Below the pieces are notes generated by a model. That model searched no databases, was not told the DNA's origin, and saw only the letters and a list, made by a program, of their open reading frames with translations. Source: Nitrosomonas eutropha (GTDB lineage: Bacteria > Pseudomonadota > Gammaproteobacteria > Burkholderiales > Nitrosomonadaceae). Taken from it: 64,000 nt of DNA. Numbering within the stretch: the stretch's first letter is position 1; each line of letters opens with the position of its first letter. The translations under genes and the position numbers were made by a program. The stretch covers positions 434,001 through 498,000 of the forward strand of contig NZ_FPBL01000001.1 in the NCBI RefSeq assembly GCF_900116685.1, written 5' to 3'. This document shows, piece by piece, positions 2,272 to 17,527 of the stretch.

Positions 2272-4419
<2,148 letters not shown>

Positions 4420-4436
4420 GGAAAAGGAGGTGTTCA

Positions 4437-4802
4437 ATGAGCGCCTACACAGTGTCCCGGCTGGCCCTTGATGCCGGGGTGAGCGTGCATATCGTGCGCG
4501 ACTACCTGCTGCGCGGATTGCTACGGCCGGTCGCGTGCACCACGGGCGGCTACGGCTTGTTCGATGACACCGCGTTGCAACGGCTGCGCTTTGTACGGGC
4601 TGCCTTCGAAGCGGGTATCGGCCTGGACGCACTGGCGCGGCTGTGCCGGGCGCTGGATGCTGCGGACGGTGACGGTGCGTCTGCGCAGCTTGCCGTGTTG
4701 CGGCAACTCGTCGAGCGTCGGCGCGAGGCCCTGGCCAGCCTCGAAATGCAACTGGCCGCCATGCCAACCGAACCGGCACAGCACGCGGAGAGTCTGCCAT
4801 GA
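4437..4802 (+). CDS. merD: MerD, mer operon co-regulator
   Basis: A 121-residue MerR-like protein with a helix-turn-helix at its N-terminus ([17 protein letters not shown]) but without the MerR cysteine set. In the family it displaces MerR-Hg(II) from the operator and returns the operon to the repressed state. The start at 4437 follows a strong AAAGGAGG site; an in-frame upstream ATG-containing extension overlaps the merA tail and is rejected. Its 3' end overlaps merE by 4 bp (ATGA). Confidence 0.95.
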
Positions 4803-5035
4803 ACAGCCCAGAGCACTTGCCGTCTGAGACGCACAAACCGATCACCGGCTACTTGTGGGGCGCGCTGGCCGTGCTCACCTGTCCCTGCCATTTGCCGATT
4901 CTCGCCATTGTGCTAGCCGGCACGACGGCCGGCGCGTTCATCGGGGAGCACTGGGGTATTGCAGCCCTCACGCTGACCGGCTTGTTTGTCCTGTCTGTGA
5001 CGCGGCTGCTGCGGGCCTTCAAGGGAAGATCATGA
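4799..5035 (+). CDS. merE: MerE, inner-membrane mercury/methylmercury transporter
   Basis: A 78-residue protein with two membrane helices; the first carries Cys28-Pro-Cys30 (LTCPCHLP), the metal-binding motif of the family. It is a broad mercury uptake protein. The start overlaps the merD stop (ATGA), implying translational coupling. Length and sequence match Tn21/Tn501 MerE. Confidence 0.95.
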
Positions 5036-5100
5036 CCGCTTCCCAGCCAGCCGAGAGTGGGCAGCTTTGAGCTTCGCTACCAATCTGGAGGAGTACCACC

Positions 5101-5313
5101 ATGAACGCAAACGCCCCGAACACTGCCAGTTGCACCACCTGCTGCGTATGCTGCAAAGAAATTCCGCTCGATGCCGCCTTCACCCCGGAAGGCGCGGAAT
5201 ACGTCGAACATTTCTGCGGGCTGGATTGCTATGAACGCTTCCAGGCACGCGCCAAGGCCGCGACAGAATCTGACATTGCGCCTGTCCCTGGCGGTTCGCA
5301 GCCGTCAGATTGA
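5101..5313 (+). CDS. DUF3330 Cys-rich protein of mer elements
   Basis: A 70-residue protein of the DUF3330 type often found just after merE in mercury transposons. It has a Cys-dense N-terminus ([11 protein letters not shown]) and a second pair FCGLDC about 25 residues later, a C-X2-C ... C-X3-C layout like the TRASH metal-binding fold. GGAGGA sits before the start. The spacing of 65 bp after merE on the same strand suggests it belongs to the mer transcript. A role in metal handling is inference; no function is established that I know of. Confidence 0.8.
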
Positions 5314-5443
5314 GGCATACCCTAACCTGATGTCAGGATACATCGCGCACAAGCGTCAGAATAGGGTGCCAATCAAATTTTATTGACATTTCTAATCAAA
5401 GGTAATAGATTTCACTCTGACATATATTACTTTTGGAGTTAAT
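5314..5443. promoter_or_regulatory. Candidate res site and promoter region of tnpR
   Basis: The 130 bp between the DUF3330 stop and tnpR are A+T-richer than the mer genes. An outer dyad pairs GGCATACCCTA (from 5314) with TAGGGTGCC (to 5370), and TGTCAGGATACAT (5331-5343) and CTGACATATATTAC (5417-5430) form a second inverted pair. Tn3-family resolvases act on three such subsites directly upstream of tnpR, so this is the expected place. GGAG at 5435-5438 serves as the ribosome site for the TTG start. Confidence 0.6.
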
Positions 5444-6004
5444 TTGTCAGGTAAGCGCATTGGTTACGTTCGAGTCAGCAGCTTTGACCAAAATCCGGAA
5501 CGACAACTGGAAGGTATTCAGGTAGATCGTGTATTTACTGATAAGGCATCGGGTAAAGATACCCAGCGACCACAACTTGATATGTTGCTAGATTTTGTAC
5601 GTGAAGACGATACAGTCGTCGTCCATAGCATGGATCGTCTGGCACGTAACCTGGATAATTTGCGCAAGCTGGTACAAGATCTTACCGGGCGAGGTATCCA
5701 GGTTGAGTTTGTCAAAGAACGATTGATCTTTACTGGTGAGGATTCACCGATGGCCAACCTGATGTTGTCGGTGATGGGATCTTTTGCGGAGTTTGAACGT
5801 GCCCTGATCCGCGAGCGGCAGCGAGAAGGCATTACACTTGCCAAACAACGTGGAGCCTACCGGGGACGCAAGAAAATGCTCAATAGTGAGCAGGTAGCAG
5901 AATTAAAGCGAAGAGTTATGGCAGGGGAACAAAAAACGTTAATTGCCCGCAACTTTGGTATCAGCCGTGAGACGCTATACCAGTATCTGAAAATGGTGGA
6001 TTGA
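5444..6004 (+). CDS. tnpR: TnpR, Tn3/Tn21-family resolvase
   Basis: A 186-residue serine resolvase starting at TTG (5444) with a GGAG site. The catalytic domain shows GYVRVSSFDQNPERQ with Ser12 as nucleophile, VVVHSMDRLARNLDNL, and EFERALIRERQREGI; the C-terminal helix-turn-helix is ARNFGISRETLYQYL. It resolves transposition cointegrates at res. Similar to Tn21 TnpR over the whole length but clearly diverged, and its codon use is A+T-richer than the mer genes, so it comes from another lineage. No tnpA follows it, which leaves the resolvase orphaned. Confidence 0.93.
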   Translation: MSGKRIGYVRVSSFDQNPERQLEGIQVDRVFTDKASGKDTQRPQLDMLLDFVREDDTVVVHSMDRLARNLDNLRKLVQDLTGRGIQVEFVKERLIFTGEDSPMANLMLSVMGSFAEFERALIRERQREGITLAKQRGAYRGRKKMLNSEQVAELKRRVMAGEQKTLIARNFGISRETLYQYLKMVD

Positions 6005-6063
6005 CATATCAGTCAACATGTTTTGGTTTTACACTTGACGCTTAAGTCATTCTTGATAGAGTT

Positions 6064-6091
6064 CCTGAATTCTTAGTTGAATTTATTCAGG
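6064..6091. repeat. Short inverted repeat between tnpR and the MNT/HEPN pair
   Basis: CCTGAAT (6064-6070) pairs with ATTCAGG (6085-6091) around a 14-base loop. It lies 60 bp after tnpR and about 50 bp before the MNT gene, so it could be a weak terminator or an operator for the toxin-antitoxin pair. No T-tract follows. Low certainty. Confidence 0.3.
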
Positions 6092-6142
6092 TACCAGCTT
6101 GAATAGAAAACCAGAAAATTCGGATTTCATTGTGGGATTTAT

Positions 6143-6481
6143 ATGAATCGCATTGATCATGACACAGAGGAAGCAGTTCGTCTCTTCCTCACCTTGATCG
6201 GTAATCGCTACGACATAGCTGAAGCTATTGTCTATGGCAGTCGTGCGCGTGGCACGCACCGCCCAGACAGCGATGCGGACGTTGCTGTGCTCTTGCGCGG
6301 CGAGCATCAACGCCTCCTGGTCGCCAAGCTGGATATGGCCGATGTTGCTTTTGATGTATTACTCGAAACTGGCATTCTCATCTCACCGCTTCCAATCTGG
6401 CTTAACGAGTGGGAGCAGCCGGAGAATTACGCGAACCCCGCCTTGCTACACAACATCATCCGGGAGGGAGTTAGATTATGA
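6143..6481 (+). CDS. MNT-domain nucleotidyltransferase (MntA-like antitoxin)
   Basis: A 112-residue minimal nucleotidyltransferase. The polymerase-beta-type signature is present: GSRARGTHRPDSDADVAVLL gives G-S and the D-X-D metal ligands, and VAFDVLLE supplies the third carboxylate. In MntA/HepT systems this enzyme AMPylates the HEPN toxin and so silences it. The stop overlaps the start of the HEPN gene by 4 bp (ATGA), the usual operon architecture. It lies in the scar region behind tnpR and has higher G+C than tnpR. Confidence 0.82.
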   Translation: MNRIDHDTEEAVRLFLTLIGNRYDIAEAIVYGSRARGTHRPDSDADVAVLLRGEHQRLLVAKLDMADVAFDVLLETGILISPLPIWLNEWEQPENYANPALLHNIIREGVRL

Positions 6482-6891
6482 GCAATCGACAACTGACATC
6501 AGGCATCTTGATGGCAAAGGCTAACACGGCCTGTTTGCCCGCGCGAGCCTTGCTCAATCTTGGTGACGTGGATGGCGCAACCAACCGTGCTTACTACGCT
6601 ATGTTCGACGCTGCCCGCGCAGCGTTACTGGCATCGGGTGCACCGGTAGAGTCAAATATTGGTCGCACCCATAGCGGCCTGATCGGGGCTTTCAGCAATT
6701 TTTTGGTCAAGAACGGCCCGGTATCGAAAGAGGTGGGGCGCCTTCTGAACCGAGCGCATGAAATCCGGCTGGTAGCCGACTACAAAGGTGATTCCGTCGA
6801 GCCTGCCGATGCGCGGGAGATAGTAGAACAAGCTGAAATTTTCGTTACCAGTTACCACTATACGGGCCAATTTCATGCTAGAAGAGTCTGA
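6478..6891 (+). CDS. HEPN-domain protein (UPF0332/HepT-like toxin)
   Basis: A 137-residue all-helical HEPN protein with features of the UPF0332 group: NRAYYAMFDAARAALL and a later EIRLVADYKG. An R-X5-H stretch (RLLNRAH) could be the catalytic RNase motif, though it does not exactly match the R-X4-6-H plus Tyr form of characterised HepT, so the activity is uncertain. Coupled to the MNT gene by a 4-bp overlap. The likely role is a ribonuclease toxin of a type VII MNT/HEPN module that stabilises the mobile region. Confidence 0.75.
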   Translation: MSNRQLTSGILMAKANTACLPARALLNLGDVDGATNRAYYAMFDAARAALLASGAPVESNIGRTHSGLIGAFSNFLVKNGPVSKEVGRLLNRAHEIRLVADYKGDSVEPADAREIVEQAEIFVTSYHYTGQFHARRV

Positions 6892-6999: not shown

Positions 7000-7350
7000 C
7001 TACAATTTAATATCAAAGTACTTCAGAATAAATATCATTATAAAATAACAGCCAGCTGTCGCTGATAGGGAAAAACCCATGCTCAGATAGAAGTTAATTC
7101 CTGCTTTAAGCAACAATGGCAAGCTGACAAAGAAGACCAGAGAGGGAATAACCATCCAAAAAATACCAGTTGCCAGATCTGCTACTTTCCCTACATCTTG
7201 GGTATCAATATAAAGCCAGAACATCGCCAAAACGGAGGTAAGTGGCAGAGAAGCCAGTAAAGCGCCAATCAATGAACTGCGTTTCGAGAGCTCAGCTATT
7301 GAAACTATCAACAGACTGGTAATGACCACTTTGATAAAAATGTAGATCAT
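7000..7350 (-). CDS. DUF3147 membrane protein, last gene of metal efflux operon
   Basis: A 116-residue very hydrophobic protein with four predicted membrane helices and a RRSSLIGALLASLPL-like segment near residue 23 that is typical of DUF3147 (here KRSSLIGALLASLP). Its start overlaps the RND pump stop by 4 bp, so the two are translated together. DUF3147 proteins are often found at the end of heavy-metal RND operons; their function is unknown to me. Being tightly coupled, it may assist pump assembly or metal entry. Confidence 0.75.
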   Translation of the reverse strand: MIYIFIKVVITSLLIVSIAELSKRSSLIGALLASLPLTSVLAMFWLYIDTQDVGKVADLATGIFWMVIPSLVFFVSLPLLLKAGINFYLSMGFSLSATAGCYFIMIFILKYFDIKL

Positions 7351-10300
7351 TCTGTGGAACTGTTATTGGTTAATACTTTCCGCAAAGAACCGAAGCGTAA
7401 GTACAAGGATGGGATTACCAACATGTTAAGAGTAGTCGATGTCACTAGCCCAAACAGAATGACAATGGCCATTGGCGCCTGAATTTCACTACCAGGTTCT
7501 CCACCCGCCAATGCCAGAGGAATCAGTGCAATACCTGTCGCCAAGGCAGTCATCAGAATAGGTGACAAGCGCTCAAGAGCACCCTGTTTAACAACCTGGT
7601 ATAAATCACGCATACCTTCTTCCTGGACGAGATGGTGAATATGGCTGACCATCATGACGCCGTTGCGTGTGGCGATACCAAACAGGGTAATAAAGCCAAT
7701 AATAGAAGCTACAGATAATATACCGCCCGAAATATAAATACCTATCACGCCCCCAATCAGCGCGAGTGGTAAATTCAACATCACCAATAACGCATCGCCC
7801 ACCGAATGAAAGGCAACAAACAGCAGCAGAAAGATACCTGTAATAACAATAAAACCGACAATGGATAATGTTTGAGTGGCTTGCTCAGCGCTTTCAAACT
7901 GTCCCCCATACTCAACATGATAGCCGCTAGGGAGGCTGACATTTTGTTCTATACTGGTACGAATATCCTTGACTACGCCAGCCAGGTCACGTTCGGCAAC
8001 ATTAGCCATAACCACAATCTTGCGCTGCGTATTTTCACGGTTGATGGTGTTCGGATTTCGTGTTTTGCGGATATCAGCCAAGGCATGTAAAGGTAATTGA
8101 GCACCAGAAACGGTCATGATAAGTGTGGAACGGATGATGTCTAAATCTTCCGGTGTGCCAGCGCCATAACGGACAACCAGGTCAAAACTACCAACATCTT
8201 CCATTATTCTTGACACAGCCTGACCGGCAAAAGCCGTTTCGATCGCTGTCGATACGGTATCGATCGTCAAACCATAGCGGGCAATCGCTTTTCTGTCGAA
8301 TTTGATATCCAGAAATGGTACATCGGCGGGATTGTCGATTGATACATCTACCGCTCCACTCACTTTGGCCGTCAGACCCTTGATCTGGTTAGCTAATCTC
8401 CGCAGTTCAGTCAAACCCTGACCAAAAATCTTGATGGCAATATTAGCGCGTGTGCCGGACAGCATGTGGTCGATACGATGGGAAATAGGCTGACCAATGA
8501 CGATTGTCATGCCAGGCACGGCAGTCAAAGATGTCCTTAAGTCAGACAAGAATTCACTTTTACCGCGATCTTGCATCTTTAAACTAACATCAATTTCTGA
8601 AGCAAAAACCTGCTGCGCATGTGGATCCAATTCCGCACGCCCAGTACGCCGAGCTGTTGAGATCACTTCCGGATGCTGCAAAATGATTTCTTCCACACGT
8701 TGCGCGAGCTGGTCTGACTGCTGCAAGGAAGTTCCTGGAAGAGTAACTGCGCTAATGGTCAAGCTGCCTTCATTGAACTCTGGCAAAAAGGCCCGTCCAG
8801 AAAATGCTAATGCAATCAAAGCTACGGTAAGACCCGCTGCTGAAAGCATACTGATTAACTTCCACCGTTTAAGAGTATGCTCCAGCAAGAATAGATACTG
8901 TTGCTTTAGCCAAGTCACTAAACGGCCTTCCTTATCTTCACGAATTGCATGGGAAGCAGGTAATAGAAGGCTACAAAGTGCCGGAGTGATGGTTACTGCA
9001 ACTAATAATGAAGCGGCGATGGCTACGATATAAGCAAAGCCTAATGGCTGTAATAAACGGCCTTCTATTCCACTAAGAAAAAATAGCGGCAAAAAAACCA
9101 GGATAATAATCAGAGTAGCAAAGACGATTGAACCCAGAATTTCATGACTCGCTTTGAACACCAGAGTAATCACCGGGAGACGTTTTTCTTCTGGCAAACG
9201 GCTGTTTTCCCGCATACGCCTGACCGTATTTTCGACAACAATGATGGCATCATCGACTAAAGCACCTAGCGCGATAGCCAGACCACCCAAGGTCATCGTA
9301 TTAATGGTCGCGCCCATGGCTTTCATTGTCAGAATCGCAGCAATCATGGATAGTGGAATGGCAAGCAAAGTAATTAATGTTGCCTGTCCACTCATCAGGA
9401 ATATAAAAATAATCAGAACTACCAGAACTGCACCATCCCGTAATGCATTAAATAAATTATGAATTGAAACTTCGATAAAATCAGCTTGCCTGAAGATATT
9501 TGCATCAAGTGTCATGCCTTTTGGAAAAGAGCTTTGAATATTCGTCAATACTTCATCCAGACGCTGGGTGAGCTCTAAAGTGTTTACACTCGGTTGTTTG
9601 AGCACGCCCAGGATGACAGCTGATTTACCATTATGCGAACCGGTACCGCGTTTAAGTGCCGCACCTATCTTAATGTCGGCAACATGCCGAATAAGTACGG
9701 GCTGACCGTTGCGCTCGGCGACAACAATTTCATTGATGTCATCCAGATGGAGAATTCTACCGATGCCCTGAATTAAATACTCCAGGCCTGAAACAGTGTA
9801 AAAGCCGGCAGAAGCATTGCGGTTACTGTCCCGGACAGCATTGACTACCTCAGCTAAAGTAAGCTTATACGCGGCTAGACGCTCAGGTCTGACTTGGACT
9901 TGATATTGTTTGGTGTCCCCTCCTATCGGAATCACTTCCGCAACACCTGGTACTGACAGCAATCGCCGCCTGACAATCCAGTCCGCCGTGGTTTTTAGCG
10001 TTAGGCTGTCATGCTGATCTGATTGCAAGGCAATAAACAAGATCTCTCCCATCACGGAAGCGATCGGTGCTAGCACTGGACTTGCGATGTTAGGTGGCAG
10101 ACTGCTACGAGCCAGCTGCAGTTTCTCCGCGACTATCTGGCGAGCTTGGTAAATATCAGTATTCCAGTCGAATTCGACGATAATTACTGCCAGACCCATA
10201 CCAGAATTGGATCGCACGCGACGTACTCCGGTCGCGCCGTTCAAAGCAGTTTCGATAGGAAAGGTAATCAGCCGTTCGACTTCGCTAGGTGCCATGCCGC

Positions 10301-10460
10301 GCACTTCGCTGATGACAGTGACAGTAGGAGCCGTTAGATCTGGCAAAACATCTACAGCCATACGCTGAGCTTCATAAATACCCCATAACAACAGGAGAGC
10401 AGAGCCGACTAATACAAACAAACGATTTTTTAATGACCAGGCGATAGCTTGTGCAATCAT
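7347..10460 (-). CDS. Heavy-metal RND efflux pump (CusA/CzcA family)
   Basis: A 1037-residue inner-membrane RND pump of the HME subgroup. It has the usual duplicated layout: TM1 at about 12-30, a large periplasmic porter loop, TM2-6 at about 340-490, then the second half. The proton-relay helix reads GGLAIALGALVDDAIIVVEN with Asp403/Asp404 and Glu410. The cleft segment RIDHMLSGTRANIAIKIFG matches the CusA region around its metal-binding methionines. It exports metal cations from the periplasm or cytosol through the adaptor and outer-membrane channel encoded upstream. Sequence alone does not settle the substrate among Cu/Ag, Zn/Cd/Co or Ni; the double Asp differs from typical CusA (VDAAI) and CzcA (VDGAV). 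Confidence 0.93.
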   Translation of the reverse strand: MIAQAIAWSLKNRLFVLVGSALLLLWGIYEAQRMAVDVLPDLTAPTVTVISEVRGMAPSEVERLITFPIETALNGATGVRRVRSNSGMGLAVIIVEFDWNTDIYQARQIVAEKLQLARSSLPPNIASPVLAPIASVMGEILFIALQSDQHDSLTLKTTADWIVRRRLLSVPGVAEVIPIGGDTKQYQVQVRPERLAAYKLTLAEVVNAVRDSNRNASAGFYTVSGLEYLIQGIGRILHLDDINEIVVAERNGQPVLIRHVADIKIGAALKRGTGSHNGKSAVILGVLKQPSVNTLELTQRLDEVLTNIQSSFPKGMTLDANIFRQADFIEVSIHNLFNALRDGAVLVVLIIFIFLMSGQATLITLLAIPLSMIAAILTMKAMGATINTMTLGGLAIALGALVDDAIIVVENTVRRMRENSRLPEEKRLPVITLVFKASHEILGSIVFATLIIILVFLPLFFLSGIEGRLLQPLGFAYIVAIAASLLVAVTITPALCSLLLPASHAIREDKEGRLVTWLKQQYLFLLEHTLKRWKLISMLSAAGLTVALIALAFSGRAFLPEFNEGSLTISAVTLPGTSLQQSDQLAQRVEEIILQHPEVISTARRTGRAELDPHAQQVFASEIDVSLKMQDRGKSEFLSDLRTSLTAVPGMTIVIGQPISHRIDHMLSGTRANIAIKIFGQGLTELRRLANQIKGLTAKVSGAVDVSIDNPADVPFLDIKFDRKAIARYGLTIDTVSTAIETAFAGQAVSRIMEDVGSFDLVVRYGAGTPEDLDIIRSTLIMTVSGAQLPLHALADIRKTRNPNTINRENTQRKIVVMANVAERDLAGVVKDIRTSIEQNVSLPSGYHVEYGGQFESAEQATQTLSIVGFIVITGIFLLLFVAFHSVGDALLVMLNLPLALIGGVIGIYISGGILSVASIIGFITLFGIATRNGVMMVSHIHHLVQEEGMRDLYQVVKQGALERLSPILMTALATGIALIPLALAGGEPGSEIQAPMAIVILFGLVTSTTLNMLVIPSLYLRFGSLRKVLTNNSSTE

Positions 10461-10472
10461 AATTAGTAACCG

Positions 10473-12026
10473 CTAGTGTGCATGGCCATGAGCACCTGAT
10501 TGCGCAGGCGATGAAGCAGCCAGAAAAACCAGATAGGCACCTTTTGTTACGACACGTTCCCCTTCATTTAAGCCACTGAGTACCTGCACAAAATCACGAT
10601 CCCTAAGTCCTAACCGCAACACCCGGCGTTGAAATGACTCCCCTCCTGACTGTACGAAAGCTACATCCTGGCCGTTATCATCAATGAGTGCCGTCTCAGG
10701 TACGGCAATTGATGCTATTTTCTCGCCTGTATAGATGCGTGTCTGCACTAATGAACCGACTGATAATTGCCTCTGTGGATTTTGGAACTCGACAACCATA
10801 GGCACCGTGCGTGTGACTGAATCAATTACTTGACCGTAAGAAATAAGTTTGCCGTTTTCGCCTAACTGAATCTGGAATTCGCTAGTGAAGCCGTCCACTT
10901 TAAAGCCAACTCGCTCAGGTTTTTTCAGTTGTGCAACATCGGATTCGGCAATTCTCACTTCCAACCATAAGGTATCGGGGTTGATGATGTGGAACAGTTC
11001 TTTACCTTCCTCGACATAGCTGCCAGAAGCAACAGTTACTTGTGCCAGAATACCGCTGATCGGTGCGTAAACAGGCACTCCGGAAGCACGTCCAATAGTT
11101 TGGTTACACGTTTGCTCCAGGCGTTTCCTTGCGGCGTTCAACTGGGCTTTCGTAACTTCAGCTCTACTTTGTGCTTCGACAACCCTGCGCTTGGCAACCG
11201 CCTCGATCTCAAAGAGCGGTTGTAGACGATTCAATTCACTGCGAGCCAGTTGATCTTCCGCTTGTGCTTTTTGAACCTCAAACTCCAGTTGTGCCATATC
11301 AGTGGCACCACTGAGGCGTGCCACCAATGAAGCCAGTATTTGTCCCTGTTTCACTGGCATGCCCACTTTCGGCAATACGTCAGCCTGTGTCAGTAAGTGC
11401 CCACTGGTTGGGGCACTGACATAGGCTTCATTTCCGGCAGAAGCTTTTAGGAAACCTAGTGCCTGTACTGATTGTTGCAATTCATGTTGATCAATAATTT
11501 CGGTGGCAAAATCTATTTTCCATTGTTGTTCCTTGAGGAAGGGAATATCGCCGCTGTCTTCTTCTTGTTCAGCATCTGCTGCAGCAAGAGCTGCCGCGAG
11601 ATCCGGGTAAACTGGCACTTCACCTAATTCGTGGCGGACCGTAAATGCCTTCGATGCCAATTCAATAGTAAGTTGTCGCTGACCCGCATAGCGAGGCTCC
11701 ACCTTGATGACGAAGATACCGGGTACTGAAGGTGAGTTAATTGAGAATCGCTCTGCAGGATAATCTTTACTGCTCAAAATAACTGTGGCCGTGCCTTCTG
11801 TAACAGGATGAAAGTCACTGAGCCTGGAAAAATGCGCCGCAAACAGGGATGCCTGCCCGACTGTTAATGCCCGGAATTCGACAAACAGTTCAGTTTTATC
11901 ACTGTAGTGAGTAAAATCATATGCTGTAGGCTTTGATAATTGGCTATCAATGTTTGTATTCTGTCTGCTACAGGCTGTCAGAAGTATCAGGAAAAGTAGA
12001 GTGAGGATTCTCATTACATTATTCAT
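10473..12026 (-). CDS. Periplasmic adaptor (membrane fusion) lipoprotein of the RND pump
   Basis: A 517-residue adaptor with a lipoprotein signal (hydrophobic run ending LLTAC, Cys19). An N-terminal beta-rich region of about 160 residues precedes a barrel-sandwich part (YVSAPTSGHLLTQADVLPKVG), a long alpha-helical hairpin (QLEFEVQKAQAEDQLARSEL ...), a second lipoyl half (GVPVYAPISGILAQV) and a beta-barrel. The tail is His-rich (GAHGHAH), a plausible metal-binding end. It bridges the RND pump and outer-membrane factor; the start overlaps the outer-membrane factor stop by 4 bp. The extra N-terminal domain makes it longer than CusB and resembles CzcB-like variants. Confidence 0.88.
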   Translation of the reverse strand: MNNVMRILTLLFLILLTACSRQNTNIDSQLSKPTAYDFTHYSDKTELFVEFRALTVGQASLFAAHFSRLSDFHPVTEGTATVILSSKDYPAERFSINSPSVPGIFVIKVEPRYAGQRQLTIELASKAFTVRHELGEVPVYPDLAAALAAADAEQEEDSGDIPFLKEQQWKIDFATEIIDQHELQQSVQALGFLKASAGNEAYVSAPTSGHLLTQADVLPKVGMPVKQGQILASLVARLSGATDMAQLEFEVQKAQAEDQLARSELNRLQPLFEIEAVAKRRVVEAQSRAEVTKAQLNAARKRLEQTCNQTIGRASGVPVYAPISGILAQVTVASGSYVEEGKELFHIINPDTLWLEVRIAESDVAQLKKPERVGFKVDGFTSEFQIQLGENGKLISYGQVIDSVTRTVPMVVEFQNPQRQLSVGSLVQTRIYTGEKIASIAVPETALIDDNGQDVAFVQSGGESFQRRVLRLGLRDRDFVQVLSGLNEGERVVTKGAYLVFLAASSPAQSGAHGHAH

Positions 12027-13309
12027 GGAATGATCCCAGTGTCTGTCAATCGATCCAGTTCAATACTTGCAGTGCGGGCCTTACGCATAAGATCTAATCT
12101 GTCCAGATCATAGGCCCATCGTTCACGATAGGCATCCAGTAGCTCAAAAACTCCAATTTCACCAGCTTGATACGAAATGCTAGCGATATTGATAAGTTCG
12201 TCCGAGACAGTTTGACCTCGTTGCTCAAAGGTCTGTATCGCTTGTAACAGACCTGTCAATTCTTGCCATGAGCCGCGAATTTCACCATATGTTTTTTGAT
12301 GCTCCAGGCGGTACTTGCCGTCAACCTTTTGCGCCTGCGCACGATAGCGTATTCGCTCGGCATTATTCTGACTCCAGAGTGGTAATGGTATTTCTATGCT
12401 GACCAGTAACGCTGTATCGGAATAGTTGGTGGCATTAAACGTTTTGGCACCAACACCAAGATTGAATTTGGGAATTTTCCAGCGCTCAGCTGCTTCTGAA
12501 TTTAAGTTAAGAGCGGATTTTTGTTTGGCGAGGCTTTGCAAAGCCGGATTCTGTTCCAGTGCTGCCAAGAGCTGATCTAAAGCCACAGGTGCTGCTGGCA
12601 AGAGCTCGCCTGAGACGCCAGACCCAAAATCCACTGTGTCATAGTCTCCCCACAAAGCATTTAGTAGCTCCCAGCTGTGATGCAGCGCTGCTTGCTCAGC
12701 TTGTTGGTGTGTCACAGCAGAAGCATGTTCGCGCTGCAAACGTTTTAAATCATAACCGGGTACGTCGCCCGCAAAAGCCCGTTTGCGGATAATTTTCTCT
12801 AGTTCAACGAGGTGTTGTAACCAGGTACTAATAGCCTGCAACCGCAGTTGCTTATACAACACGTCAAAGAAATACAGGCGAGTTTTAGCTTTGAATAAGG
12901 CAAGACGGGATTGTGTTGCATCTGTGGCAGACAGCAGGCGAAATTCGGCTGCTGATTGTCTTAATTTACGTCGCCCGCTTAAATCAATACTCTGCTTGAT
13001 CATGTAAGATTGTTCAGTTGCATTTTGGTCTCGCAAGCGAGGGTTATCCAGCAAATAATAGATCGTTGGGTTTTCCCAGTGCGAATATTCTTCAATATCA
13101 CTTTGCGCCTCGTTGATAGTACCTTTGATCCAATCTTGGATACTGGCCTGTTGCAAAACCTTTTCTACCGTCTGTGCTTCAGTTAAAAATGCAGCCTTTT
13201 GTGCATATGCTGGTACAAAAAGCATTAGCAGAGCCATAAATAAAGTGTTTGTCACAAAATACCGATTATTAATCGGTATTTTTGGTAGATGATTTTTGAA
13301 CTGAGCCAT
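12023..13309 (-). CDS. TolC-family outer-membrane factor of the RND pump
   Basis: A 428-residue outer-membrane channel protein of the CzcC/CusC type. A hydrophobic segment ending VPAYAQ at about residue 36 is the signal peptide; the rest is helical with two repeats, each with a long coiled-coil region, and motifs such as WENPTIYYLLDNPR and LPLWSQNNAERIRYRAQ. It completes the tripartite pump. The gene starts 21 bp after the M56 gene. An internal Met at 13237 could be an alternative start, and a striking palindrome lies between the two starts; neither start has a good ribosome site. Confidence 0.85.
   Translation of the reverse strand: MAQFKNHLPKIPINNRYFVTNTLFMALLMLFVPAYAQKAAFLTEAQTVEKVLQQASIQDWIKGTINEAQSDIEEYSHWENPTIYYLLDNPRLRDQNATEQSYMIKQSIDLSGRRKLRQSAAEFRLLSATDATQSRLALFKAKTRLYFFDVLYKQLRLQAISTWLQHLVELEKIIRKRAFAGDVPGYDLKRLQREHASAVTHQQAEQAALHHSWELLNALWGDYDTVDFGSGVSGELLPAAPVALDQLLAALEQNPALQSLAKQKSALNLNSEAAERWKIPKFNLGVGAKTFNATNYSDTALLVSIEIPLPLWSQNNAERIRYRAQAQKVDGKYRLEHQKTYGEIRGSWQELTGLLQAIQTFEQRGQTVSDELINIASISYQAGEIGVFELLDAYRERWAYDLDRLDLMRKARTASIELDRLTDTGIIP
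13256..13282. promoter_or_regulatory. 27-bp perfect palindrome, candidate operator at the start of the pump genes
   Basis: AAAATACCGATT (13256-13267) and AATCGGTATTTT (13271-13282) are perfect complements around a 3-base centre. Its 17-bp core 13261-13277 matches the palindrome upstream of the blaI-type gene (14918-14934) at 14 of 17 positions. It lies 27-53 bases inside the annotated outer-membrane factor frame, so it could mark a second repressed promoter for the pump genes. Confidence 0.6.
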
Positions 13310-13330
13310 TCTATAGATTGCTCATGAGAG

Positions 13331-14296
13331 TTAGATTAAGTGATGCAAAGGCATAGTTACCGCCAGCATGCCACTAAACAAAATACTAAAAAATAGTACT
13401 GTATAAAATATACTGCTACGACTTACTGGTTTGGGTGGCTCCAGCAGTTGTTGAATCCTGACATCAATATGACTGCCATTGAACGCAGTGGTACCTATAT
13501 CCTGTTCCGGAATCCGTGTATTTAATTGGCGAGCCAGATTAACGATGGTTTCTGCCACAAAAATACGATCCCTGACCTTCAGCACAGCAGTTTCATCGCA
13601 GATTTGTTCCTGTGACAATGCCAAATCAGCCAGTAAATGTCGACGTAGAGCAGGAAAATGAAACAGAGCTGCCAAATTCATTAATAAGCGATGTAACACA
13701 TCGCGTCGTCGGCAATGTGCTTGCTCATGCGCCAGTACTACATCCAACTGTTTAACCGATAACTGATCCATGAGCTGTGTGGAAATAAAAATACGAGGTG
13801 TAAACAGGCCACAAGAGAAAACAAATAAATACTTACTGGCAATGCGATAAACACCAGCTTTATGATCCAGTCGGCTGACCATCCGGAGTGCTGCTTGAAA
13901 ATTTTGATGCCTGGTCAGTAACTGGATACCTTTATATATATTAAACAACATGATCATCGCTAGCAGGCTGCTTCCACCTTGCCATAACACATTAGGTAGA
14001 TGAACAATTGGATCAAACCAGCAAAAATGTGCTATGCCATTAGTATGGCTGGCACAGTGTTTTGTTGCTATTTCATGACTATCTGTCCAGGAAGGAAATA
14101 ATCCGCCTAAAGCCAATAGCATCCCTATTAAAACGGGGCTCAGCAGCCACAACGTCAATAAATTAAACCGTATATAGCAAGGCAGTTGAATCAGTTTGTC
14201 CTTCGTCCATGAATACAAAGGTATAGATAGTAATGCCGCTGAACCCGTAAAAAAGAGTAGCGCTAAAAAGCCTGACTGGATTAAATGTAGGGTCAC
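13331..14296 (-). CDS. M56-family membrane metallopeptidase (BlaR1-like), candidate metal sensor
   Basis: A 321-residue integral membrane protease with the BlaR1/MecR1 plan: TM1 at about 7-29, TM2 at 43-65, an outer loop at 66-105, TM3 at 106-124, a cytoplasmic zinc protease domain with HEQAH (His190, Glu191, His194) and SQEQICDE as the third-ligand region, and TM4 at about 298-318. It lacks the penicillin-binding sensor domain of BlaR1. The outer loop is instead rich in His and Cys (His74, His80, Cys81, His84, His90, Cys92, His99), which suggests a metal sensor. It would cleave the BlaI-type repressor encoded just upstream. Start is GTG at 14296 without a clear ribosome site, so the start is tentative. 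Confidence 0.82.
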   Translation of the reverse strand: MTLHLIQSGFLALLFFTGSAALLSIPLYSWTKDKLIQLPCYIRFNLLTLWLLSPVLIGMLLALGGLFPSWTDSHEIATKHCASHTNGIAHFCWFDPIVHLPNVLWQGGSSLLAMIMLFNIYKGIQLLTRHQNFQAALRMVSRLDHKAGVYRIASKYLFVFSCGLFTPRIFISTQLMDQLSVKQLDVVLAHEQAHCRRRDVLHRLLMNLAALFHFPALRRHLLADLALSQEQICDETAVLKVRDRIFVAETIVNLARQLNTRIPEQDIGTTAFNGSHIDVRIQQLLEPPKPVSRSSIFYTVLFFSILFSGMLAVTMPLHHLI

Positions 14297-14465
14297 AGTA
14301 AGCTTTTAGTATCGTATTCCAGGGAGGTACTAACTAAACCAATAAATGTCATTGCAACTTCAAATGTAATAAAGCAGGTAACAATCCAGATGATTTTTAT
14401 AATCAATTTTCTGGATCACCATGTCGCTATATTTCTTGGCAATGACAACATAAATTAGCGTTTCC
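14297..14465. other. 169-bp gap between repressor and M56 gene, no gene seen
   Basis: No coding frame and no copy of the 17-bp palindrome is visible here. The gap is A+T-rich. It may hold the leader of the M56 gene or a separate promoter. Confidence 0.4.
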
Positions 14466-14858
14466 CTAATTCTTTAAGCGATATTCATTAATCAACTGCT
14501 CTAGTTTATCCAACCGAGAATCATCAGTATGATGAGCCGCAATATCGATGAAAGCAGCCAACATACTATCGGTGTCTTCTTTAGAGATGACCTTAACAAC
14601 ATCCTTGATCATGCGGCCCATAAGTTCATCACGGCTTACGGCAGCGTGATAAATATAAGCATGACTGATTTTTTGACGCATCAATAGCTTCTTCTTGAAT
14701 AAGCGTTCAAGTGTAGATTGAATGGTATTGTGTGAAATGCCACGCATTTTCCCCAAAGTGTTATAAACGCCTTTGGCATCGAAGTCGCCGTTGCTCCATA
14801 GATATTCGAGAACTGCCAATTCCAGCTCGCCTAAATGAAAACGCTTTGAACCATACAT
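14466..14858 (-). CDS. BlaI/MecI/CopY-family repressor
   Basis: A 130-residue repressor with the BlaI winged helix: LGELELAVLEYLWSNGDFDAKGVYNTLG, then SHNTIQSTLERLFKKKLL as the recognition helix region and the wing ISHAYIYHAAVSRDE. The C-terminal half is the helical dimerisation domain. BlaI-type proteins are cleaved by BlaR1-like M56 proteases, and such a protease is encoded next on the same strand. In this setting it most likely represses itself and the metal RND operon. Candidate operators lie at 14918-14934 and 13261-13277. Confidence 0.88.
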   Translation of the reverse strand: MYGSKRFHLGELELAVLEYLWSNGDFDAKGVYNTLGKMRGISHNTIQSTLERLFKKKLLMRQKISHAYIYHAAVSRDELMGRMIKDVVKVISKEDTDSMLAAFIDIAAHHTDDSRLDKLEQLINEYRLKN

Positions 14859-14917
14859 AAAGCAATCAACTACGCAAGTAGCCTGACAATTAAAAAGATA
14901 AGTTTAGGCATCAATAA

Positions 14918-14934
14918 ACCGACTGTCAATCGGT
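14918..14934. promoter_or_regulatory. Candidate BlaI-type operator (ACCGA-N7-TCGGT)
   Basis: ACCGACTGTCAATCGGT, with 5-bp arms, lies 60 bases upstream of the repressor start, where its promoter should be. The same spacing and arms recur in the palindrome at the start of the outer-membrane factor gene. It does not resemble the TACA-N2-TGTA operator of classical BlaI/CopY, so the pairing is by context and repetition. Confidence 0.55.
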
Positions 14935-14947
14935 GTTTTATAGACCT

Positions 14948-14966
14948 AACCTATAAAATATAGGTT
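14948..14966. promoter_or_regulatory. 19-bp perfect palindrome AACCTATA-N3-TATAGGTT
   Basis: Perfect 8-bp arms around AAA, only 13 bp from the ACCGA palindrome. It may be a second operator half for the same promoter, or the site of another regulator. No other copy was found. Confidence 0.4.
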
Positions 14967-15372
14967 TTGAGCCTTGCCGAGCAAGTCGGATCAGAACGTA
15001 TATCTGTCACCGAGAAATACCCAGCACTTGAGCAGCAACATCAGCAATTCTGATAGTCGACCACACTTTGAGCGCTGCCAGTAGTCTACCCTGTGGCGGT
15101 GATCAAGAGAACAGCCAGTTACACCCAGTCAACTGATGCAATTATCTTCTGAAAATTACAGATTGAGTCCAATAAATGGACGTTTTTTGCACCAACGTCT
15201 GTGCCCCGATTTGCACTTCCTATTTTTCTTTTTAGTCTGTTCTTGTTTTTTCCAACAATAAAAATTAACATTGCACCCTAAAATTTGGGGATTTAGCAGC
15301 CTCCCCACTCAAGACGCTCGCGTCCAAGGCTTGCTCCAATCTTAAGGTTAAATTCCCTATAGAGGAGAACGC
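14967..15372. other. About 400 bp without a convincing gene
   Basis: Separates the repressor and chrA, which are divergent. I see no RNA gene or complete coding frame. A short minus-strand frame at about 15002-15075 reads as a protein tail (WSTIRIADVAAQVLGISR then stop) and may be a gene remnant, but I cannot name it. A small GACGC-TC-GCGTC hairpin sits at 15313-15324. The chrA promoter should lie in the last 150 bp. Confidence 0.35.
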
Positions 15373-16647
15373 ATGGACGCTTCAAACCAAGGTACCAAAG
15401 TACCGAATTCAGATACATCCCCTATTTCGCTGAATGAGAGCGCGGTACGCGTACCACACGAGTCGCTTGGTCGTCTCTTTTTGCGCTTTTTGAAGTTCGG
15501 TTCACTGGCGTGGGGTGGGCCCGTTGCGCAGATCGCGATGATCCAGCACGAACTGGTCGAGGAAGAGAAATGGGTGAGTCGGCAGCACTTCAACCGGGTA
15601 TTAGCAATGTATCAGGTGCTGCCAGGCCCTGAGGCACATGAGTTGTGCGTATATTTCGGCATGCTGGCGCGTGGGCGCATCGGTGGTATTCTGGCAGGAT
15701 TGGGCTTCATGCTGCCTGGCTTTATACTCATGATGACTCTGTCGTGTCTGTATATTCGTTATGGACTACAGACGACAGGCACTTTTGCAACCATTTTCGC
15801 AGTCGTGCAAGCGTCTGTTGCAGCACTCATCGTACGCGCAGTCCATCGTATCGGCAGTCATGTATTGATCGATCGATGGTTATGGCTTATCGCGATCATT
15901 GCGACGGCTGCTCAGCTCACAGGCGTTCACTTCACAATCATACTCATTGCAGGAGGCGTAATTTACGTATTGGCGAAGCGAGATAAAACGTCGCTTGCCA
16001 TCTCCTTGATGATCCTGTGCGCCCTTGGAGTAATCGGCGTGCTTGTTTCTAACGACTTCCATCTCGTCGGTATGGGTAATGTGGCGGTTCAACAGGGCCA
16101 AAGCGAGGCCCAGCGGTCGCTATGGGAGCTGTTCATCTCAGGACTAAAGGCAGGGATGCTCACATTTGGCGGTGCCTACACCGTTATACCGTTCCTACAG
16201 GAGGATGCTGTTACCGACGGTGCCTGGATGACGAATACCGAATTCCTCGATGGCCTGGCGCTATCCGGTTTGCTGCCCGCACCACTGATTATCTTTGCGA
16301 CGTTTGTCGGTTACCTTGGCGACGGAGCTATGGGAGCAATCATACTGACAGCAGGCATCTTCCTGCCTGCCTTTGCCTTCACGCTCCTTGCGCACGATCC
16401 TCTGGAGAAATTGGTCAGCGAACCGCGTGTACGTGAGTTCCTCGAAGGCATCACGTCAGGTGTCGTCGGTCTGATCGCAGGGACAAGCATCGCCCTGGTG
16501 GTGGTGAGTGTTGTGAACATCATAACCGTGATTATCTTTACTGTAGCACTCGCCGCACTTTTTTATTTCAAATCCAAGCTGATTATCCCACTCGTTGTTG
16601 TAGGCGCTGCGTTTGCGGGTTTTGCGGCGAGCTTTGTATCGGTGTAG
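15373..16647 (+). CDS. chrA: ChrA, chromate efflux transporter
   Basis: A 424-residue long-chain CHR-family transporter with two homologous halves. Each half has its signature: FGSLAWGGPVAQIAMIQHEL near residue 43 and LTFGGAYTVIPFLQEDAV near residue 267, followed by PGPEAHELCVYFG and LLPAPLIIFATFVGYL. About 10-12 membrane helices. It expels chromate from the cytoplasm. AGAGGAGA sits before the ATG. It adds chromate to the mercury and divalent-metal resistances of the island. No chrB regulator is next to it. Confidence 0.93.
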   Translation: MDASNQGTKVPNSDTSPISLNESAVRVPHESLGRLFLRFLKFGSLAWGGPVAQIAMIQHELVEEEKWVSRQHFNRVLAMYQVLPGPEAHELCVYFGMLARGRIGGILAGLGFMLPGFILMMTLSCLYIRYGLQTTGTFATIFAVVQASVAALIVRAVHRIGSHVLIDRWLWLIAIIATAAQLTGVHFTIILIAGGVIYVLAKRDKTSLAISLMILCALGVIGVLVSNDFHLVGMGNVAVQQGQSEAQRSLWELFISGLKAGMLTFGGAYTVIPFLQEDAVTDGAWMTNTEFLDGLALSGLLPAPLIIFATFVGYLGDGAMGAIILTAGIFLPAFAFTLLAHDPLEKLVSEPRVREFLEGITSGVVGLIAGTSIALVVVSVVNIITVIIFTVALAALFYFKSKLIIPLVVVGAAFAGFAASFVSV

Positions 16648-16654
16648 TGGGTAA

Positions 16655-16683
16655 GCGGGGTAGACGAAGACTCGTTTACTCCG
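16655..16683 (+). terminator. Possible hairpin after chrA
   Basis: GCGGGGTA shortly after the chrA stop pairs with TACTCCGC (one G-T pair) across a loop of roughly 14 bases. No clear T-tract follows. It may end the chrA transcript before the IS element. Confidence 0.3.
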
Positions 16684-16702
16684 CAGGAAAGCTAGCGATG
16701 TA

Positions 16703-17527
16703 AGAACCTGTTTACAATCTGTTTCTCACCCCTGATAATAAATAGGTGAAGAGACCAAAATACGCCAGCGACATCAGCCGAGAGAAGTTTGCCGAGATAG
16801 AGCCATTACTGCGCAGTGTACGCTGCCGCACCAAGCCTGCGACAGTGGATCTGTACGAGGTGTTTTGCGCGGTGTTGTATCTGCTGCGCACTGGCTGTCA
16901 ATGGAGATACCTGCCCGACAAGTTTCCCAAGTGGCAGAGCGTATATGCCTATTGGCGCAAATGGAGCGAGCCCGACCAGAATGGCGTCAGCCTGTTGGAG
17001 CGGCCCGAGAGAAGTTGGGGCGCAACGCTTGTAGCACGTTCCTGATCGTGGACGCGCAGAGCGTGAAGAACATGGACACGGCGGGCCAGAAGGGCTATGA
17101 CGCAGGCAAGAAGGTATCAGGCATCAAGCGTCATATCGCGGTAGATACCCAGGGTTTGCTACATACTATTGCGGTAACCACTGCGGAAGTGACCGATCGC
17201 AAAGGAGCTTTGCAGGCTCTCAAGCGCTGCAAACCGAACTTGAAGCAAGTCCAAAGTCTGCTGTGTGATAGCGGCTACATCGGTCAGCCTTTTGCCCAGG
17301 ACGTCAAGGACATCCTGGACGAGCACGTGACAGTGCAGATTGCCAAGCGTAGTGAATTGCACACGTTCAAGGTTATCCCCAAGCGCTGGATCGTCGAGCG
17401 CAGCTTTGCCTGGCTGGAGAAGAACCGACGGCTGTGGAAAAACTGCGAGCGCAAACTTAACACCAGCTTGCAGTTTATTCATCTGGCCTTCATGGCACTG
17501 ATACTCAGAAGATCATAAACAGGCTCT
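16703..17527 (+). mobile_element. IS5-family insertion sequence (IS427-like group)
   Basis: About 825 bp. The imperfect ends are AGAACCTGTTTACAATCT at 16703-16720 and, on the other strand, AGAGCCTGTTTATGATCT at 17510-17527, flanked by a TA on both sides that fits a 2-bp target duplication. Inside lies one transposase in two frames. The element interrupts the 3' part of the higA remnant. Size, ends and transposase agree with the IS5 family. Confidence 0.8.
16746..17518 (+). pseudogene. IS5-family transposase, frame broken near 16998-17010
   Basis: The N-terminal part (GTG at 16746; RPKYASDISREKFAEIEPLL, TGCQWRYLPDKFPKW) is in one frame and the DDE core is in another: TFLIVDAQSVKN (first Asp), GLLHTIAVTTAEVTDRKG, LLCDSGYIGQPFA (second Asp) and RWIVERSFAWLEKNRRL (Glu). 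Together they form a normal transposase of roughly 255 residues. The frames would join if one G were added in GAGCGGCCCGAGAG. Some IS5 subgroups use programmed frameshifting, but no classical slippery site is visible, so I favour a single-base loss. Confidence 0.7.

Follow-up and report, generated by a model that had tools for sequence, protein, structure and literature searches.

A BlaI/M56 repressor-protease pair as a candidate periplasmic metal switch of an HME-RND efflux operon in Nitrosomonas eutropha

To which signal does a BlaI-type repressor with its M56 membrane protease respond when the two genes stand in front of a metal efflux pump? This question is raised by an operon of Nitrosomonas eutropha, contained in the 64,000-nucleotide stretch of contig NZ_FPBL01000001.1 (positions 434,001-498,000) that is called the window here; the operon is numbered by window positions. 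An original prediction had described a BlaI repressor and an M56 protease upstream of, and in line with, an outer-membrane factor, an adaptor, an HME-RND pump and a DUF3147 gene, and had proposed that metal in the periplasm triggers the protease. All six genes were confirmed within 7000-14858, co-directional on the minus strand and in the transcription order blaI-M56-outer-membrane factor-adaptor-pump-DUF3147. Our analysis makes it likely that the pair is a proteolytic switch that takes periplasmic metal as its input and controls the efflux operon. The gene order, catalytic motifs, conserved ligand set, operator, promoter and cleavage-site residues are read from the sequence itself. The proposal gains support from the conserved core of a protease loop, from pump partners at most readable loci, from an operator common to the family and from a repressor without cysteine; metal binding, the identity of the metal and cleavage are inferred. 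The genes are as follows.

14466-14858, minus strand: BlaI/MecI/CopY-type repressor, 130 amino acids (Pfam PF03965 Penicillinase_R, E=1.6e-22)
13331-14296, minus strand: M56 membrane metalloprotease, 321 amino acids, without C-terminal sensor domain (Peptidase_M56, E=4.3e-13)
12023-13309, minus strand: outer-membrane factor of the TolC/CzcC type (Pfam OEP, 7.7e-13)
10473-12026, minus strand: periplasmic adaptor of the CusB/HlyD type (profile searches)
7347-10460, minus strand: HME-RND pump with the signature GALVDDAIIVVEN in transmembrane helix 4 (TMH4) (TIGR00914, CusA/CzcA family, 847 bits)
7000-7350, minus strand: DUF3147-type small membrane protein (NCBIfam PRK09272-type)

The profile scores place the three central proteins in their families. 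The repressor matched Penicillinase_R with 80.4 bits (cut-off 22.6) and belongs to the BlaI/MecI/CopY family, with 2g9w, 1sd4 (BlaI) and 1okr (MecI) as structural kin in the PDB. The protease matched the Peptidase_M56 profile with 49.5 bits (curated cut-off 31), and the pump lies above the TIGR00914 cut-off of 701 that defines HME-RND (CusA/CzcA) proteins. In the whole genome of N. eutropha there is one BlaI-family gene and one M56 match above the family cut-off. Downstream from the M56 gene, neighbouring genes overlap or are spaced by 12-21 nucleotides. The product of 7000-7350 matches DUF3147 proteins adjoining blaI in Shewanella and Salmonella at 36-39%.

The absence of a penicillin-binding sensor domain, which had been claimed before, was borne out: none was found in Pfam or NCBIfam scans, and the protease ends 7 residues past its fourth transmembrane segment (TM4). 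Because this domain is absent, the window pair is not a beta-lactam sensor. Hydropathy places TM2 at residues 46-64, TM3 at 110-128 and TM4 at 296-314. By homology with BlaR1 (N-out, C-out; PMC9834060), both the TM2-TM3 loop and the C-terminus are predicted to face the periplasm. The protease carries the two gluzincin motifs that mark BlaR1/MecR1, HExxH (H190-H194) and ExxxD (E230-D234), and the Asp equivalent to BlaR1 D210 is also invariant. The following features of the protease are used below.

13970-14104, minus strand: predicted periplasmic TM2-TM3 loop, residues 65-109, counterpart of BlaR1 EL1 (hydropathy; EL1 from PMC9834060)
14021-14059, minus strand: core H80-C81-x2-H84-x5-H90-x-C92, predicted metal site (conservation among 27 proteases)
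13340-13345, minus strand: His318-His319 beyond TM4, a tail predicted to lie in the periplasm and perhaps to belong to the sensor site (conservation, topology)
13715-13729, minus strand: catalytic zinc motif HEQAH, residues 190-194 (invariant in alignment A2; aligned to BlaR1 H201ExxH)
13595-13609, minus strand: second gluzincin motif, E230-x3-D234 (invariant in alignment A2)
13481-13486, minus strand: Ala271-Phe272, aligned with Ser283-Phe284, the place where BlaR1 cuts itself (site from PMC9834060)

The loop is the part of the protease that points to metal. The seven His and Cys residues named in the original prediction (H74, H80, C81, H84, H90, C92 and H99) are all present, and five of them, H80, C81, H84, H90 and C92, make up a core that a divergent family has conserved; H74 and H99 are confined to the window and Methylobacter. 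A loop whose His and Cys are not conserved among homologues would have refuted the original prediction, which thus withstood this check. In the family, which counts 27 loci (window included), the core motif [DE]HCxxH..HxH[LF]CxxHP is retained at about 28-30% identity. In the 27-member alignment, H80 occurs in 18, C81 in 21, H84 in 22, H90 in 16 and C92 in 21 sequences. Counting as conserved every column with at least 45% His or Cys, the loop holds seven such columns (window positions 80, 81, 84, 88, 90, 92 and 95), of which 88 and 95 are occupied by other residues in the window protein. Elsewhere, only the two catalytic His, Cys233 near the second catalytic motif and the tail pair His318-His319 were found. 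This pair, which the original prediction did not include, is strongly conserved (H318 in 26/27, H319 in 21/27). When His and Cys were counted in a fixed 45-residue stretch, the family proteases had 4-9 (mean 6.48) and 26 other M56 proteins 0-3 (mean 0.81), with no overlap; since the 26 proteins used for comparison are longer and the 27 members, among them several near-copies, are not independent, this contrast is strong but gives no calibrated probability. As a separate observation, residue 233 within the ExxxD motif (window 13598-13600) is Cys in 18/27 members and Ala in the remaining 9.

A second element beyond the original prediction is a 17-bp operator upstream of blaI, which lies over the promoter. 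The sites are listed together with the predicted cleavage site of the repressor.

14918-14934, minus strand: operator dyad ACCGATTGACAGTCGGT, ACCGA-N7-TCGGT, 17 bp, predicted BlaI binding site
14924-14929, minus strand: -35 box TTGACA, inside the operator, 17 nucleotides from TAAACT
14901-14906, minus strand: -10 box TAAACT (the promoter matches at 10 of 12 positions; chance alone would give one site of this quality in the stretch)
14550-14555, minus strand: Ala102-Phe103 of the repressor, which aligns with the BlaI cleavage site Asn101-Phe102 (S. aureus BlaI and MecI as references; site from PMC9834060)

The dyad ACCGA-N7-TCGGT stands upstream of blaI with all ten letters in 20 of 26 loci and with nine of ten in five more, leaving only L082 without it. 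In 2600 dinucleotide shuffles, nine reached 9/10 and none 10/10, a comparison that controls only partly for the fact that the motif was first spotted by eye in the same sequences. A pattern search of the genome returned 14918-14934 as the only perfect copy, so the switch appears to be dedicated to its own operon. The block of operator and promoter is conserved in Methylobacter, whereas its flanks are not. Just upstream of the operator lies a second dyad, TTTTATAG-N7-CTATAAAA (14945-14970, minus strand), which is missing from the Methylobacter copies.

BlaR1 cuts BlaI between Asn101 and Phe102, and itself between Ser283 and Phe284 (PMC9834060). At the predicted cleavage site of the repressor, Phe is found in 23 of 24 readable family members. 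Activation of BlaR1 starts with acylation of the sensor domain by a beta-lactam; EL1, which joins helices 2 and 3, is then displaced, and this bends helix 3 and turns the protease on (PMC9834060). In the switch proposed here, a Cys-less BlaI dimer would at rest occupy the dyad that covers the -35 box, repressing the operon from blaI to DUF3147. Periplasmic metal would bind the His/Cys cluster of the TM2-TM3 loop, a site suggested by conservation, and the His-His tail may contribute to the binding. By homology, metal binding would then alter the protease, taking the place of loop displacement in BlaR1 as the trigger. The protease would cut BlaI before the conserved Phe, the operon would be derepressed, and the pump would export the metal and thereby end the signal.

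Further BlaI/M56 pairs beside HME-RND operons were searched for. The neighbourhood was readable at 22 of the 27 loci, the other five lying on contigs that are too short. A same-strand HME-RND pump follows the pair at 17 of these 22, that is, in the window and at 16 others, and a divergent TonB receptor stands beside it at the remaining five. Two Methylobacter genomes (L005, L006) hold the closest relatives, with 77-78% identity of the M56 protein and 92% of the pump. Remoter copies, mostly of 22-37% identity, are carried by plasmids of Glaciecola, P. aeruginosa, Shewanella and Salmonella and by further genomes of the class and phylum; a search of plasmid DNA with the operon at megablast level gave no matches. 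The partner pumps show at least four TMH4 signatures (GALVDDAIIVVEN, DFGLxVDGAxIIVEN, GMMVDGSVVMVEN and GILVDASVVVVEN). On the protease tree, many inner forks of which are weak, the partner label changes 9 times, compared with 15.9 in shuffles and a minimum of 5. Partners are thus clustered on the tree, yet have probably been exchanged, as the changes exceed the minimum. Most pump loci also hold a HupE/UreJ-type gene and a conserved small gene, both missing in the window. At L005:10817-12158 and L009:9697-11296, the HupE/UreJ-type gene is seen with a conserved protein of one transmembrane segment without Pfam family, and sometimes with DUF6488. L078, L079, L080, L088 and L089 have the BlaI/M56 pair and its operator divergent to a distinct TonB receptor family with the motifs HGHGQGYTDLNF and GFHSNDARGTTI.

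These observations allow a broader proposal, for which we see about even chances: that sensor-less M56 proteases form a widespread proteobacterial branch in which metal on the EL1 loop and the tail behind TM4 gates a cytoplasmic protease across the membrane. It would be a further route of periplasmic metal signalling besides two-component and extracytoplasmic function (ECF)/anti-sigma systems, coupled by one conserved operator both to HME-RND pumps of several kinds and to a TonB receptor.

Which metal the pump carries can be narrowed from its alignments. The pump scored 508 bits against CusA and 476 bits against ZneA. At the three-Met site of CusA, which we take to be M573, M623 and M672, the aligned residues are Ser, Ala and His, and a CusA-type copper pump was therefore set aside. 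The lack of this site argues against Cu(I)/Ag(I), although the metal is not fixed thereby; from the sequence, a divalent or broad metal (Zn, Cd, Co, Ni) is the more probable substrate.

Several points weigh against the metal switch. Metal binding, metal identity, signal transfer, cleavage and derepression are all inferred steps. Tyr261, which lies next to the active site and is near strictly conserved in BlaR1 proteins, is replaced by Val247, invariant in a 16-member alignment. An AlphaFold2 model of the protease built from three sequences (window, L005, L006) reached a pLDDT (predicted local distance difference test) of only 37.6, too low for a claim that loop and tail come together in space. 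One subfamily of six loci (L007, L009, L010, L073, L077, L090) lacks both C81 and C92 and has HWHH...SWH in their place. Finally, five loci have a TonB receptor and not a pump, which means that the signal may be something other than an excess of exported metal.

Some of these points bear on what else the loop could sense. Either both C81 and C92 are present (21 of 27 members) or neither is (the other six), as would be expected if they formed a disulfide, with the His residues being structural and the loop responding to oxidation or to copper-catalysed disulfide stress. Such a redox or envelope-stress sensor is unlikely: a disulfide needs neither four to five conserved loop His nor a His-His tail, the Cys-less subfamily retains the His cluster, and the partners are mostly metal pumps. 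The TonB receptors at five loci and the several TMH4 classes, which make a single metal for all unlikely, would also fit another periplasmic ligand, such as a metal chelate, a peptidoglycan fragment or a TonB substrate, with the His and Cys residues as a structural zinc site shaping the loop. We regard this as quite improbable, given that a structural site would be expected to show less variation in its ligand set, that most partners are metal pumps and that the protease has no ligand-binding domain outside the membrane.

The two other explanations concern the repressor and the dyad. CopY_TcrY is the best curated NCBIfam model for the repressor, which could suggest that the metal sensor is BlaI itself, acting in the cytoplasm like CopY, and that the M56 protein serves merely for turnover. 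With 53 bits the match is far under the cut-off of 122, and the window repressor has neither Cys nor a CxC motif, with 0 or 1 Cys in the 24 readable family members. A repressor without Cys is not a CopY-type sensor; this mode of sensing was rejected, and the explanation as a whole is very improbable. By its score the dyad resembles a terminator on both strands (3 such sites found against 0.5 expected), but we give hardly any credence to an intrinsic terminator or attenuator in place of the operator and set it aside. The letters of the arms, beyond their pairing, are identical across systems of about 30% identity, the -35 box lies inside the dyad, and at the five TonB loci the dyad falls within the intergenic stretch between divergent genes.

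Within the operon, the window differs from its nearest relatives between blaI and the M56 gene, where the gap is 169 nucleotides and the Methylobacter copies have a 4-nucleotide overlap. This gap is due to a palindromic repeat inserted between the two genes.

14306-14452, no strand assigned: palindromic repeat with the ends TTGTCATTGC...GCAATGACA, absent from Methylobacter L005 and L006

The repeat (fold z=-2.88) has one further, partial copy in the genome, on contig C22. With it, the 4-nucleotide overlap is broken, the repressor tail is shortened and the protease is left with a GTG start. The operon is flanked by a chromate transporter gene on one side and a nucleotidyltransferase/HEPN pair on the other, with a merA-like reductase and a resolvase not far away. 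The chromate transporter (ChrA family) is divergent and is succeeded by a transposase of IS type, both within 15373-17518. The region 2356-6891 holds the merA-like reductase with an HMA domain, a MerR-type regulator, the resolvase and the nucleotidyltransferase/HEPN pair, which suggests a mobile metal-resistance island beside the operon.

The response of Gram-negative bacteria to metal stress in the periplasm is commonly attributed to two-component or ECF systems. In this family, a textbook beta-lactam switch appears to have been converted into a metal sensor that serves efflux pumps, among them plasmid-borne pumps recorded from Pseudomonas aeruginosa, Shewanella and Salmonella. The automatic label 'M56 family metallopeptidase, BlaI/MecI/CopY regulator' may mislead readers into assuming a beta-lactam response. 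If the proposal is true, the sensor would show how an M56 protease can do without a sensor domain and be gated by a small loop. The model lends itself to direct tests, since it predicts the ligands, the cleavage site and a 17-bp operator. A literature search, with most subscription papers outside its reach, turned up nothing on an HME-RND pump governed by a BlaI/M56 pair, on the operator, or on conserved ligands in loop and tail; the only pertinent parallel that it yielded is the copper-responsive PetR/PetP pair of cyanobacteria.

Among known systems is the two-component control of HME-RND pumps of the CzcRS/CusRS type. It shares with the window pair a periplasmic signal and an HME-RND operon as output, whereas the pair would act by proteolysis of a repressor instead of phosphotransfer to an activator. 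In CopY, metal is sensed by the repressor itself through a Cys motif; CopY/TcrY belongs to the same repressor superfamily and also has a metal-resistance target, but the window repressor lacks this metal-binding motif. With BlaR1/BlaI and MecR1/MecI of Staphylococcus, the pair has in common a four-TM M56 protease with HExxH/ExxxD, an outer EL1 loop and a cytoplasmic protease, a Phe after the cut in both the repressor and the self-cleavage site, and a winged-helix repressor over its own promoter. It differs from them by the missing penicillin-binding domain, the His/Cys-rich loop, the His-His tail, the Val in place of Tyr261, a different operator and a metal pump as target. PetR/PetP of Synechocystis is likewise a BlaI-family factor adjoining a BlaR1-family protease, an arrangement also found in the window, and according to Garcia-Canas et al. 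2021, as described in PMC7896320, the protease removes the factor when copper is present. By this account, PetR both represses and activates, and what is controlled is the swap of plastocyanin and cytochrome c6, not efflux. Since PetR/PetP is already known, metal control of a BlaI/M56 pair is not new in principle, and by analogy this system, in which such a pair can answer to copper, supports the reading of the window pair as a metal switch.

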